DNA from: Nodosilinea sp. LEGE 07298
Lineage (GTDB): Bacteria > Cyanobacteriota > Cyanobacteriia > Phormidesmidales > Phormidesmidaceae
Reading direction: 5' to 3'
Assembly: GCF_015207265.1 (NCBI RefSeq)
Contig: NZ_JADEXE010000004.1
Span: 1-60,399 of the forward strand
DNA: 60,399 nt
Positions 24,074 through 28,424 of the stretch are shown here, piece by piece. A program made the position numbers and the translations under genes. A model generated the notes under the pieces. The model was not told the DNA's origin, did not search any database, and saw only the letters and a program-made list of their open reading frames with translations. Numbering within the stretch: the stretch's first letter is position 1; each line of letters opens with the position of its first letter.

Positions 24074-24104
24074 GGATGGTGGGCGGTGCCCACCCTACGG
24101 GATG
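24074..24104 (-). repeat. GTAGGGTGGGC dispersed repeat, right copy (inverted)
   Basis: This is the reverse complement of the unit at 23550-23580 (here GGTGGGCGGTGCCCACCCTA and then CGGGATG). A GTG inside it opens the long frame that runs into the TIR gene, but this GTG belongs to the repeat and is unlikely to be the true start. Confidence 0.7.
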
Positions 24105-24115
24105 TTTTTAGGGCG

Positions 24116-24225
24116 TTTCGAGAAAAGTACTCGGTGTTTCGAGAAAATAACTCGGCGTTTGGAGAAATCTGCTCGGCGTGCCGAGAAAATTACTCGAAAC
24201 CTGGAGCAAACCGCTCGGAATCTCG
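24116..24225 (+). repeat. Five-copy 21-bp tandem repeat upstream of the TIR gene
   Basis: Units begin at 24116, 24137, 24158, 24179 and 24200, with a final partial TCTCG. The best conserved core is CGAGAAAA(N)TACTCGGCG, so each unit also holds a CGAG/CTCG half-palindrome. Divergence grows from left to right. It is open in the TIR frame, because 21 is a multiple of three, but it is more likely noncoding DNA. Confidence 0.75.
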
Positions 24226-24301
24226 CCCTTTGGGGCTGAAGACTGAGGTTAAGATTGACCAAACCGCCCCTTCACCGCCACTGTCGCCAGCCCCGCCACC
24301 G

Positions 24302-25290
24302 ATGCCCAGTATTTCTATCTCCTACCGCATCAGCGACAGCGCCGATATCACCGGGCGCATCCGCGAACGGCTGGTGGATTACTTTGGGGCTGAGCAAATT
24401 TTTCGCGATGTGCAGTCTATCCCTCTAGGTATCGACTTTCGAGACAACATCAACACCGAGCTAGACAATTGCCAGGTAATGGTGGTGGTAATTGGCCCCA
24501 CGTGGCTCAGCGTTGAAGATACTGATGGCGATCGCCGTCTTGAGCACCCCGATGACTGGGTGCGGCGAGAAATTGAGACTGCCCTCAACCGTGGGATTCC
24601 GGTTATTCCTGTGCTGCTGGGCAACGCCCGTCTACCCAAGGCCGAAGAACTGCCCGAAAGCTTGCAGGCACTGGCCTACCGCAACAGTACCACCGCCAGG
24701 GCCGACCCTGATTTCGACCCCGATATGGCGCGACTGATTAAGAGTCTAGAGGCGGTGCTGGCTGAGCCTTCGTCCACGGCCTCTACCCCTAACAACCTGC
24801 CTCGCAGCGGTGCGGTGGAGTTTGTGGGCCGCGAAACCGACCTCAACAACCTTCATACCCAACTTCATCAATCGGATTGCGTTGCCATTACTGCCCTGGG
24901 CGGCATGGGGCATTGGTAAGACCGAGCTGGCCCTGAAATATGCCTTGCACGACCGCGCCCAGGGCACCTATCCCGGCGGTATCTACTGGCTGCAAGCTAA
25001 AGAGCTAGCTATCGGCATCGAGATCGTTAACTTTACCCTTGTCTACCTATGGTCATAGACGACGTAAGCGGCCCCGGCGACAACGCAGTCTATGCTGCTA
25101 TCAAGCCCTACCTGCCACACTCAAAAAACGCTTTCGGGTGGTGAGCAGCACCCGCCTGCAACTAGACACATCTAAACGATGGTGCAGATCGACGTACTGA
25201 GCAAGACTGCGATCGCCTTAGACTTTATCGTGCCGCTTAATGGAAAGAGTTTGCTTACTTTGCAAAGTATGGGCTGGGCTATCTTCTGCC
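24302..25290 (+). pseudogene. Frameshifted TIR-NB-ARC (STAND) gene
   Basis: The TIR domain starts at the ATG at 24302 (SISISYRISDSADITGRI, then IFRDVQSIPLGIDF, VVVIGPTW, RREIETAL and IPVIPVLLG). This is the pattern of toll/interleukin-receptor domains, and a Glu in RREIETAL could be catalytic for NAD cleavage. An NB-ARC begins near 24820 (VEFVGRETDLNNLHTQLHQS). The P-loop is split: the frame stops at 24917, while the +1 frame reads GIGKTELALKYALHD. One extra G in the run 24907-24910 explains this. Further on, VIDDVSGPGDNAVY and KKRFRVVSSTRLQLD are in yet other frames, and the spacer between them and the P-loop is too short. The gene is dead unless the TIR half alone is used. Confidence 0.75.
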
Positions 25291-25350: not shown

Positions 25351-27765
25351 ATGGTTGATGAACCCGGAAACCAACCTGCCCTGGTCAATCAACTAGCTAG
25401 TGCAGCCATCAAAGTCCTTAAACCTGGAGGGGTGGGGGTTGGAAGCCTTTTGGGGCTGTGGTACTTAGTGATAGAAAGCAAAGTGGCGGAGGCGATCGCC
25501 GCTACCCTAATCGGTTTTTGCCTCTCTTACGTTAGCAAGCTGTGGGAACCCATCCACCAGGGCAACCAAACTAGGGCAAAAAACACGGGTGAGACTATCA
25601 ACATCGCCATTAACGAAACTATTGAGCAACTCTTTGCCAAAGCTACTGGAGCCGAAGATATCTATCTGCTGTGCCAAGCCCTTGACTGCCGCGACTACAA
25701 ACCGGAGGGCATGGGCGCACGGGATCGTATCTTTATTCCTATGCTACAAGAAGTCTTTGTGCCCCTAGAGCTAGACAGTAGCTCCATTGCTCCAGGACTA
25801 AACCGCCACGGGCAATCGCCAGAAGACTGGCAAGAACTGCGGATTTGGACATTTTTAGCTCAGGCCCAACAAGAACCTGCCTATCGACAACTGGCCGTTG
25901 TGGCTTGGGGTGGATTTGGCAAAACAACTCTGCTTAAACATCTGGCTTATATCTACAGTATGCGGCAGCATGAGCAGTATGGCGTACCACCGTTGGTGCC
26001 CATACTGCTTCCCTTACGTAAATACCGCACCCAGCTCACCAGCGCACAACCACCCACCCTGCCTGAACTGGTCATGAAGCACCACCTCAAGCACCTGGCA
26101 GAGCTTGACCCACACATTCAACGTCTACCAAATAACTGGGCTGCAACACTATTGCTCAGTGGCAAAGCCCTGACGATGATGGACGGGTTTGACGAAATTC
26201 CAGAAGCCGATCGCCCTGCCCTTAGCCGATGGATCAGCGATCAGATGCGCCGCTTCGACCGTTCAGTGTTCATCCTCACTTCGCGCCCCACTGCCTACAG
26301 AGACAATTTTGCTGAACCCCTACGTACCAAACTGTGGGTGCGCCCCTTTAAACCTAAGCAGCAGCATGACTTTGTGCAGCAGTGGTATCTGTGCCAAGAG
26401 CGGCTTGACCGGGGTGGGCGCGACACCCCTGAGGTGCAGCGCGAAGCCAAGCGCAACGCAAACAACCTGCTAAGACAACTCAACGACACTAATCGCCCAG
26501 AACTCGCTGATTTAGCCAAAAATCCACTGTTGCTCAACCTGCTCGCCACCTACCACCGCAGCAACCCCGGCGTAGAGCTACCCCGCCAGCGGGCTGAGCT
26601 TTACCAAGATATTTGCACCCTGCAACTGCGCAAACGCCCGGATGCCCGCAGTATCGAGTTGCCCCTATCGCCCAGTCAACGCCAAAGTGTACTTCAGGCT
26701 GTGGCTCTGACAATGATGCAGCGCAACCTTAGGCTCATTCCAGAGCACGAGCTAGTGCAGCAAATTGCCTTGATCTTTCAGGCTCAAGGCCATACCGTTG
26801 ACCCAAAAGTCTTCCTGAGGCAAATTATCGATGTCAGCGAACTCGTTGTGCGCCAAGGGTTAGAGGGCTGTGAGTTTGCACACCTTAGCTTCCAAGAATT
26901 TTTGGCTGCCGCCCAAATTAGTGCCCTCAACCAAGAGGCGCTGCTTTATCCCCACCTGGCCAATGCCAACACACAAGGCGACGACCTTGCTTGGTGGCGA
27001 CAGACCATTTTGCTTTACGCTGCCCAAACCAATCCCACTGGTCTGATCAAAGAAGTCCTGCGCCAGGGTGCCCACGATCTAGCCTACGCCTGTTGGCAAG
27101 AAAGCCAGCGCACCCTAGATGCTAATATTGCCGCCGAGCTAGAAGCGCTTAAACTTACATTGCAAACCTCTCGCTATGCGAAGCTAGAAGAACTGCTAAA
27201 AACCCAGCAGTGGTGTAAAGCGGATGAAGAAACCTATAGGCTGATGATTACCACCGTAGGCAAAGAAGAAGGTCAGGAGTTTGACCCAGAGGACCTGCTC
27301 AGTTTTCCCTGTGACGATTTAAAGACTATTGATGAGCTATGGGTGACCTGTAGCGATGGCAAATTTGGCTTTAGCGTACAAAAGCAAATCTATGTAAAGT
27401 GTGGTGCTAAGCTGGACAGCAAATACCCAGGTGATACGATTTGGGAAAATTTTTGCGATCGCCTAGGCTGGCTCAAAGCAGGCAAGTATCTGGGCTACAA
27501 CGACCTGAAAGCAGACCCATCTATATCTCCCACCGGAGAATTTCCGATTGCGAGAATCTTTTGGGGGTGGGGACAATTTTCCTTTGGTGAAGGTGGTGGA
27601 GCGAGCAGGAAAGAAAAGGAAAGTGGATGGAGCTTGGAGGAAGAGATCGAGCGCAGAAGGAATAAATCAAGGGGATCAATGGGATGGACAGTCGAAAGAG
27701 AACAAATGAAAATGAAGGAAAACCTTAGGAGGATTGTCCATCTTCTCTCACATCAAGACTTATAA
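25351..27765 (+). CDS. NACHT NTPase fused to a C-terminal GUN4 domain
   Basis: 804 residues. Two N-terminal hydrophobic stretches (about 27-65) may anchor it in a membrane. The NACHT domain has a Walker A (WGGFGKTTLL, near 187), Walker B (LTMMDGFDEIPE, near 275), FILTSRPTAYRD and NPLLLNLLATYHRSN. After a helical region with LSFQEFLAA, residues about 608-730 match GUN4: KLEELLKTQQWCKADEETYR, FPCDDLKTIDELW, DGKFGFSVQKQIY and WENFCDRLGWL. GUN4 binds Mg-porphyrins or bilins and stimulates Mg-chelatase. Fused to NACHT it may act as a tetrapyrrole sensor for a STAND switch. The last 70 residues are charged and unassigned. The adjacent broken TIR-NB-ARC gene supports a signalling or defence role. 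Confidence 0.88.
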   Translation: MVDEPGNQPALVNQLASAAIKVLKPGGVGVGSLLGLWYLVIESKVAEAIAATLIGFCLSYVSKLWEPIHQGNQTRAKNTGETINIAINETIEQLFAKATGAEDIYLLCQALDCRDYKPEGMGARDRIFIPMLQEVFVPLELDSSSIAPGLNRHGQSPEDWQELRIWTFLAQAQQEPAYRQLAVVAWGGFGKTTLLKHLAYIYSMRQHEQYGVPPLVPILLPLRKYRTQLTSAQPPTLPELVMKHHLKHLAELDPHIQRLPNNWAATLLLSGKALTMMDGFDEIPEADRPALSRWISDQMRRFDRSVFILTSRPTAYRDNFAEPLRTKLWVRPFKPKQQHDFVQQWYLCQERLDRGGRDTPEVQREAKRNANNLLRQLNDTNRPELADLAKNPLLLNLLATYHRSNPGVELPRQRAELYQDICTLQLRKRPDARSIELPLSPSQRQSVLQAVALTMMQRNLRLIPEHELVQQIALIFQAQGHTVDPKVFLRQIIDVSELVVRQGLEGCEFAHLSFQEFLAAAQISALNQEALLYPHLANANTQGDDLAWWRQTILLYAAQTNPTGLIKEVLRQGAHDLAYACWQESQRTLDANIAAELEALKLTLQTSRYAKLEELLKTQQWCKADEETYRLMITTVGKEEGQEFDPEDLLSFPCDDLKTIDELWVTCSDGKFGFSVQKQIYVKCGAKLDSKYPGDTIWENFCDRLGWLKAGKYLGYNDLKADPSISPTGEFPIARIFWGWGQFSFGEGGGASRKEKESGWSLEEEIERRRNKSRGSMGWTVEREQMKMKENLRRIVHLLSHQDL

Positions 27766-27947
27766 GGTCAATATCTGTTGATGCTGCGATTATTTAGAAA
27801 CGTGAAGTCTGTCTCCCCGACTCAGTTCTTAAATGCCGTGGGTCAGCCGTAGGATCAGGTGCATAAATAAAAAAAATGCGATCTTTGTAAAGATTTTATA
27901 TTCGCGGTTGGGAATCCTTCTAGAAACCCTCTAGGAGGCATCTGACC

Positions 27948-28424
27948 ATGACCAGCAACTACATTAGCGCCACCCTCTCCCTGCAAGACCGCGACGAGAT
28001 CATGGCGGCCATTGCCACCATTCGCGACCGACTCCCCTTCGTCATCGACGTAGCACCCAAAGTCAAACGCTCCATGCCCAAAATGGGCGACAAGAGCCGC
28101 GCCTTTGTGCAAAAAGCCCTCGACGTCGCCATCCAAAACCCCGACTTTTTGCCCCGCTCCTTTGATATCGCCGAACTCCAGCGCGATGTAGAGCTGTTCG
28201 AGAAGATCTATCCCCTAGCCATGGCCCTCACCCAGCTCCAGGCCGACCTCGACGACACCCTCGCCGCCGTTGGCAGCGACGCCTTTACCGCCGCCCTTCA
28301 GGTTTACCGCCACGCCAAAGCCCACGGCGACGGCAGCGGCCTCGACACCCTGGTCGAAGAACTGGGCCAGCGCTTCGATCGCCAGCCCCGCAAAAAAGCT
28401 GTCGCCGTCGAGCCAGCAATGTAG
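27948..28424 (+). CDS. Conserved hypothetical helical protein
   Basis: 158 residues, nearly all predicted helix, with no signal or membrane segment. Blocks include DRDEIMAAIATIRDRLPFVI, KMGDKSRAFVQKALDVAIQN and LTQLQADLDDTLAAVGSDAF. A Shine-Dalgarno (AGGAGG, 27930-27935) sits about 12 bases before the ATG. The gene stands alone and is closed by a strong hairpin terminator. Proteins of this kind are found in various bacteria as uncharacterised four-helix proteins, and no function is claimed. Codon use is strongly biased to C-ending codons, suggesting good expression. Confidence 0.75.
   Translation: MTSNYISATLSLQDRDEIMAAIATIRDRLPFVIDVAPKVKRSMPKMGDKSRAFVQKALDVAIQNPDFLPRSFDIAELQRDVELFEKIYPLAMALTQLQADLDDTLAAVGSDAFTAALQVYRHAKAHGDGSGLDTLVEELGQRFDRQPRKKAVAVEPAM

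Follow-up and report, generated by a model that had tools for sequence, protein, structure and literature searches.

The window considered here, a stretch of 60,399 nucleotides from Nodosilinea sp. LEGE 07298, carries at 25351..27765 on the + strand an intact open reading frame for a protein of 804 amino acids. Relatives that match most of its length occur in eight named genome records at 39-68% identity over the best segment. In the order as a whole, 28 places in 23 of 63 genomes match the query from residue 112 or earlier through residue 707 or later, a tally counted by hand from the table with matches broken into two pieces left out. The first-pass annotation had described the gene as an intact NACHT NTPase with a GUN4 domain at its C-terminus, and both assignments are borne out by Pfam matches above cut-off: NACHT at residues 188-345 (25912..26385, + strand; E 6.8e-13) and GUN4 at residues 606-739 (27166..27567, + strand; E 5.3e-31). 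The Walker motifs are kept as had been claimed, GGFGKTT (Walker A) from residue 187 and LTMMDGFDE (the region of Walker B) at 274, and residues G187, G188, G190, K191, T193 and D278-E282 are invariant in nine of nine aligned relatives. An AlphaFold2 model of the protein is of moderate quality (mean pLDDT 64.7), and its best Foldseek match is NOD2 (E 2.4e-11), followed by NLRC4 and NLRP3. What remains of the membrane segments once placed at the N-terminus is a borderline hydrophobic stretch at residues 39-58, where hydropathy peaks at a 19-residue Kyte-Doolittle mean of 1.54. Model confidence is low across this putative stretch (block means 47-48), and a membrane anchor was rejected, the hydropathy being merely borderline. 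Judged by its sequence, the window gene is a real, intact gene for a STAND/NLR-type NACHT protein with a C-terminal GUN4 module. In common with other bacterial NACHT and NLR-like STAND proteins it has an NLR-like fold and a NACHT domain in which both Walker motifs are present. The usual sensors of NLR-like STAND proteins are LRR, TPR or WD repeats, whereas here the sensor end consists of GUN4 followed by a variable tail.

The tail itself begins where the GUN4 domain becomes unusual. The Pfam GUN4 match ends at profile position 130 of 141, short of the LxNxLR segment of true GUN4, and the C-terminal 65 codons (27547..27741, + strand) overlap the end of that match and lie mostly beyond it. They make up this gene's copy of a hypervariable region (VR) that recurs at comparable junctions in relatives; at 195 nt it is the longest among the 91 junctions compared. 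Its first third is G/T-like (G.40, T.28) and the remainder is A/G-rich. Directly after it, at 27742..27772 on the + strand, lies a decayed copy of a 3' element, with 7 mismatches in 31 positions, that gives the protein its stop codon (..HLLSHQDL, then stop). This copy is the best site in the 60 kb on both strands, the runner-up having 10 mismatches, and 300 shuffles of 1.5 kb never fell under 9 mismatches. A frameshift error in the tail was considered and dropped, as a three-frame check showed that all three frames occur in relatives. No RAYT, the transposase gene that recurs beside relatives and is described below, was found beside the window gene. Because the element has decayed and a RAYT is absent beside the gene, the window copy looks like a frozen member, inactive for diversification; the protein may still be working despite its frozen VR.

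Upstream of the gene, at 24086..25058 (+ strand), lies the relic that had been annotated as TIR-NB-ARC, frameshifted at its P-loop. Its TIR domain (TIR_2, E 8.6e-11) and its broken frame were confirmed; the NB-ARC part comes from a P-loop recognised by eye, and the scanned relic ORF has no NB-ARC profile match. The relic frame reads GGMG and then stops, while another frame continues GIGKTELALKYA... A functional link between this neighbour and the NACHT-GUN4 gene is unsupported. As for the defence island into which the relic had been fitted, five long flanks of NACHT-GUN4 relatives, read by eye, showed no recurrent defence gene and no such island. The gene that does recur beside relatives is the RAYT (L009, L010, L011, L013 and others). 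For an ORF of 158 amino acids on the other side of the window gene, at 27948-28424, Pfam, NCBIfam and PADLOC all gave nothing at E <= 1. The PADLOC model PDLC04062 (PD-T4-6) matches the window protein itself at E 8.9e-32, mainly via its GUN4 part; the match covers residues 566-734 only, against model positions 267-425 of 450, and identity with PD-T4-6 was rejected. Since this model chiefly matches the GUN4 part, GUN4 proteins of cyanobacteria may be wrongly labelled as defence proteins when annotation is automatic. Identity of the window gene with a cyanobactin precursor was also rejected: the leader and the AGDDAE end are absent, and the genome (G000) has 0 pattern matches.

Across relatives, the sequences are alike up to the GHLP or GEFP of GUN4 and divergent afterwards. 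Many of the divergent tails end in one of three ways, as SSLAQRLVNCS.., LFSRIETCKL or LLSHPDL, and these endings are the three reading frames of one DNA string, a conserved element of 31 bp. The VR border is written TCT/CTTCTCTCG. Whatever the frame, the element usually terminates the protein within about 8 to 17 codons; a few tails, such as those of L027 and L030, run on. It is present in 33 of 63 genomes of the order and in 47 of 386 of the phylum, a reversed control pattern being found in 0, and the hypervariable junction system occurs in 25 of the 143 genera sampled. At up to 2 mismatches there are 115 distinct element sites, and with five left out for having less than 400 nt upstream, 107 of the 110 follow a GUN4 domain. 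The three exceptions resemble decayed or truncated copies, and one of them is the second site of a genome (G305) with two element sites and one GUN4 gene. The element ends in GTAG or GTAA, and several of 12 folded copies give a small hairpin (e.g. TCTCG-CRT-CGAGA). The cognate REP of a RAYT system is a hairpin adjoined by GTAG or GTGG. A conserved hairpin was rejected as a description of the element, only part of the copies folding so. Its conservation weakens past the stops, where the reading frames end, so that coding selection in three frames could account for part of it.

The STAND-type switch architecture first suggested for the window protein stands as far as the NACHT and GUN4 domains are concerned, and fellow members of the class carry trypsin, kinase, TIR, caspase or NACHT domains. 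In a set of 35 GUN4 proteins hand-picked from loci with an element or a RAYT, Trypsin_2 was found 10 times, Pkinase 8, TIR_2 5, NACHT 4 and Peptidase_C14 3, with single instances of CHAT, NB-ARC and EAD1. In the accessible text of two papers, such fused domains are treated as effectors in conflict and cell-death systems (PMC7159879, PMC8195603), and membership of this class suits a role of the predicted protein in a system of that type. GUN4, the Mg-chelatase cofactor, and its cyanobacterial paralogues have in common with these proteins a GUN4 core above the Pfam cut-off; here, by contrast, hypervariable sequence replaces the LxNxLR segment and effector-type domains are fused. A phage collection gave no GUN4 matches.

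The properties of the VR were compared at 91 junctions, the window copy included, which were drawn from 106 element sites obtained at a laxer setting after 15 without a GHLP-like motif had been dropped. VR length ranges from 17 to 195 nt and leaves a remainder of 0, 1 or 2 on division by three in 27, 25 and 39 junctions. The composition is A.17, C.11, G.39 and T.33, and mean G+T is 0.739, whereas the 60 nt that precede the VR have 0.443; the VR has the higher value in 90 of 91 junctions. By codon position this composition is nearly flat (p 0.04), whereas the upstream GUN4 codons are strongly structured (p 9e-96). In-frame stops interrupt 2 of 91 VRs compared with 49.6 +/- 3.9 in shuffles; with HMM-defined domain ends the figures are 5 of 107 and 62.5 +/- 4.4. 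The lack of codon structure together with the scarcity of stops suggests that VR sequence arises largely irrespective of codons and that mainly translatable versions are then retained.

Close pairs sharpen the contrast between the VR and its surroundings. Pairs whose 330 nt of upstream sequence are 90% identical or more number 37, drawn from 13 junctions; their mean identity is 0.943 in the last 60 nt upstream, 0.961 in the element and 0.852 in the next 60 nt downstream. The VRs of the same pairs average 0.527, to be set against 0.486 for shuffled VRs. One close pair, L194 and L196, has an identical 63-nt VR, which indicates that VR change is not constant. In L205 and L207 the first 12 nucleotides of the VR are common and the rest divergent, and some VRs, such as those of L119 and L153, contain local duplications of flanks. 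Donor cassettes were rejected for one 84-nt VR, the only one tested for a donor, in a search of 15 genomes: it has a single occurrence in its own genome of two contigs, and the 14 congeners gave chance-level matches only (best E 0.035). A comparison of strains carrying three Tolypothrix/Fremyella plasmids was uninformative, the locus being identical but without a recognisable element. Overall, a targeted origin of the VR at the level of DNA appears highly probable. One alternative would be neutral drift of an unconstrained C-terminus, with the element kept since all three tail frames are useful, and the weaker conservation of the element beyond the stops accords with it. Drift would have to accommodate the strong G/T bias in nearly every VR, the scarcity of stops and downstream DNA that averages 85% identity in pairs with unlike VRs, and is considered improbable.

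The location of the VR bears directly on what the GUN4 module might sense. It had been proposed that the window protein is a tetrapyrrole-sensing STAND switch, in which a porphyrin or bilin on GUN4 gates the NACHT NTPase. The general idea of fused GUN4 domains as tetrapyrrole sensors is already published (Kaur 2020, PMC7159879, in its accessible part); moreover, the GUN4 core is retained, and the fused GUN4 is similar in sequence to a tetrapyrrole-binding GUN4 of solved structure. A check of the known bilin motif nonetheless showed that it is not retained. This motif, LxNxLR, is linked to bilin binding, and its Asn is found in no member of the paralogue clade as presented in the accessible text of PMC10156173. 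A scan of the first 30 residues of each fused tail found it in 0 of 91, the window copy included; the genome's own GUN4 orthologue (L001) reads GHLPLSNQLR, with LxNxLR directly after GHLP. Among the GUN4 matches listed, the 44 strongest, one per genome, reach profile position 140-141 and most others end at 124-138. The absence of LxNxLR and the shortened profile matches together indicate that the VR occupies the place of the known ligand segment of true GUN4. A segment that differs between near relatives is ill-suited to a fixed ligand, and the model of the window protein, with pLDDT below 50 over residues 670-698 and 704-783, is unusable for the GUN4 pocket. Tetrapyrrole sensing via GUN4 is thus left unsupported and the proposed switch is unlikely; tetrapyrroles may be bound by another mode than LxNxLR.

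A constant part followed by a variable part and a constant 3' end resembles the layout of a diversity-generating retroelement (DGR), which was therefore considered first. In its accessible text, PMC7517822 reports DGRs in cyanobacteria and GUN4-like domains in some DGR variable proteins, and an RVT_1 match is present in 18 of 22 element- or RAYT-bearing genomes, G000 included. No RVT_1 match was found in the other four (G034, G002, G447 and G406, the last two being single contigs), so a reverse transcriptase is not required in those four. One genome (G128) has an RVT_1 gene between two element-bearing GUN4 genes; this gene scores the same as four other copies in that genome and has the look of a mobile intron. 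DGR repeats keep their length, unlike the VRs, whose lengths vary over all three frames. No template repeat with the 3' end of a VR was found among the 110 element sites at a limit of two mismatches, under which a diverged template could escape, and the element copies outside GUN4, just 3 of 110, are not template-like. With lengths, template and RVT_1-less genomes all against it, a DGR was set aside as the source of the VRs, and one acting in trans is very unlikely. The resemblance to sensor-diversifying DGRs, as described in the accessible text of PMC10907252 and PMC7159879, is that a defined sensor part varies while the remainder is constant, and that the effector types overlap (TIR, trypsin-like and caspase-like peptidases); the GUN4 VRs differ from them in being free in length and frame and G/T-rich, besides the lack of a template repeat among the element sites searched and of an RVT_1 match in four of 22 genomes. 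As a separate observation, G023:C2:3253337-3256062 contains eight partial RVT_1 matches about 350 bp apart, a tandem array of reverse-transcriptase fragments.

The convergent gene beside L009, L010, L011 and L013 encodes a Y1 transposase, with Y1_Tnp above the Pfam cut-off in three of the four; the locus of Stenomitos frigidus ULC18 (L010) is an example with an intact RAYT. Among RAYTs of at least 200 amino acids, the HUH motif is present in 42 of 43 and the Tyr motif likewise in 42 of 43. In these respects the genes resemble RAYT (TnpA-REP); they differ in that NCBIfam REP_Tyr_transpos scores 72, 51 and 18 bits on three scanned RAYTs, under its cut-off of 80, and in that the clade here mostly faces the variable end of a protein gene. 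A RAYT query matches 44 of 386 genomes, 11 of these in an outlying family (f20). Outside f20, 29 places match over 200 positions or more, and every one of them was read: 20 face the end of a GUN4 gene, 4 that of a cyanobactin precursor, another lies 0.7-0.9 kb from a precursor, and the remaining 4 show neither target (L258 having little flank). A recognisable element is present at some, not all, of the 20 GUN4 ends faced by a RAYT. The element occurs in 24 of 33 RAYT genomes outside f20 compared with 47 of 386 overall (Fisher p 4e-18, uncorrected for kinship).

At many VR loci, however, a RAYT is missing. Leaving out five of the 91 junctions with too short a flank, 67 of 86 have no RAYT in the flank, 14 have an intact one and 5 a remnant. 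VR G+T is 0.784 with a RAYT and 0.731 without, a difference that is not significant (p 0.15). In the genus with the best close pairs (g27), a search at E <= 1e-8 gave no RAYT match for 8 of the 16 genomes; seven of these eight contain elements, and their VRs are different. The window's genome has, at the same threshold, two broken RAYT pieces only, one of which (G000:C205:11042-11678) has five stops and lies beside an intact element at a contig end. Given these gaps, RAYTs may act and then be lost, may act in trans, may have acted in the past, or may be passengers. If they are passengers, a host process such as replication slippage or break repair in G/T-rich DNA would vary the VRs, and the RAYT would do no more than recognise the 3' element, or the DNA around it, as a place to land. 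In favour of this are the numerous VR loci and whole genomes without a RAYT, the flank duplications inside VRs such as those of L119 and L153, and the association of RAYTs with short hairpin repeats (PMC6006769, accessible text). Harder to reconcile with a passenger are the retained catalytic motifs, the overlap of RAYT and element genomes (its p value, as above, uncorrected for kinship) and the finding that the same clade faces hypervariable ends of unrelated cyanobactin precursors. The passenger explanation is possible, at rather less than even odds; the chances that RAYTs have a role in VR diversification appear close to even.

The cyanobactin loci deserve a description of their own. At the four places where a RAYT faces a precursor, its stop lies 35 nt past the AGDDAE codons, and in a tree without support values the cyanobactin RAYTs are one clade nested within the GUN4 RAYTs. 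RAYTs face precursors with variable cores at L260, L261, L263, L267, L277, L279 and L283, each core being flanked by a constant leader on one side and, on the other, by some 90 nt of 3' DNA that is constant too. The likeness to the GUN4 junctions therefore consists of a hypervariable core, a constant leader and 3' end, and a RAYT of the same clade (4 of 29 places). The precursors differ from the GUN4 VRs in keeping their frame, in being without an evident strong G/T bias (by eye) and in that tandem copies occur. For sphaerocyclamide a transposase is mentioned that lies between the precursor gene and the prenyltransferase gene, and for arthrospiramide one between artE and artF; the accessible text of these papers makes no tie to core variation (PMC6162287, PMC4663559). 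Similarly, a link of GUN4 or cyanobactins with RAYT and hypervariation was not found in the accessible text of the open-access literature, which leaves subscription papers and preprints outside.

The reading preferred here, to which a probability of roughly 0.55 is assigned, is that the window protein would be an NLR-like NACHT protein whose sensor end derives from GUN4, lacks the bilin motif and carries a variable peptide tail, the tails of its relatives having been diversified at the DNA level without a template and without a reverse transcriptase. After the GHLP codons of GUN4, a new G/T-rich tract of any length would be set before the constant 3' element. Such a tract may be made template-free through opening and resynthesis at the element, where a RAYT, as a Y1 HUH nuclease, would initiate the opening if one is present, and selection would then retain open tails. 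The fused domain could then be the output of a sensor for immunity or cell death, with the variable tail as its recognition surface; the odds of an immune-recognition role for the tail are judged about even. The most complete version of this mechanism is a more tentative proposal. In it, a template-free system independent of reverse transcription would use a RAYT-type HUH nuclease to open target 3' ends at the element and add G/T-rich sequence of free length with few sense-frame stops, giving random GUN4 recognition tails, and a sister RAYT clade would do likewise for cyanobactin cores. Random joining without a template is a logic known from vertebrate antigen receptors, and the proposed writing of VRs is comparable to the junctional N-additions made there. 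If true, bacteria would create random tails for sensors of the defence or cell-death type with neither template nor reverse transcriptase. It could also account for the fusion of a single small domain of photosynthetic origin to many different cyanobacterial effectors, and it would offer an explanation, open to test, of cyanobactin cores that vary amid constant flanks.

Two further features of GUN4 loci were observed. The genes are clustered, with two to four per 20-25 kb at L240:3952-12839, L235:3935-13051, L238 and L239. On Tolypothrix plasmids (L232:1-8342), a MoxR ATPase, a VWA/CoxE-type protein and two GUN4 proteins are found together in an arrangement that resembles MoxR-vWA ternary systems.
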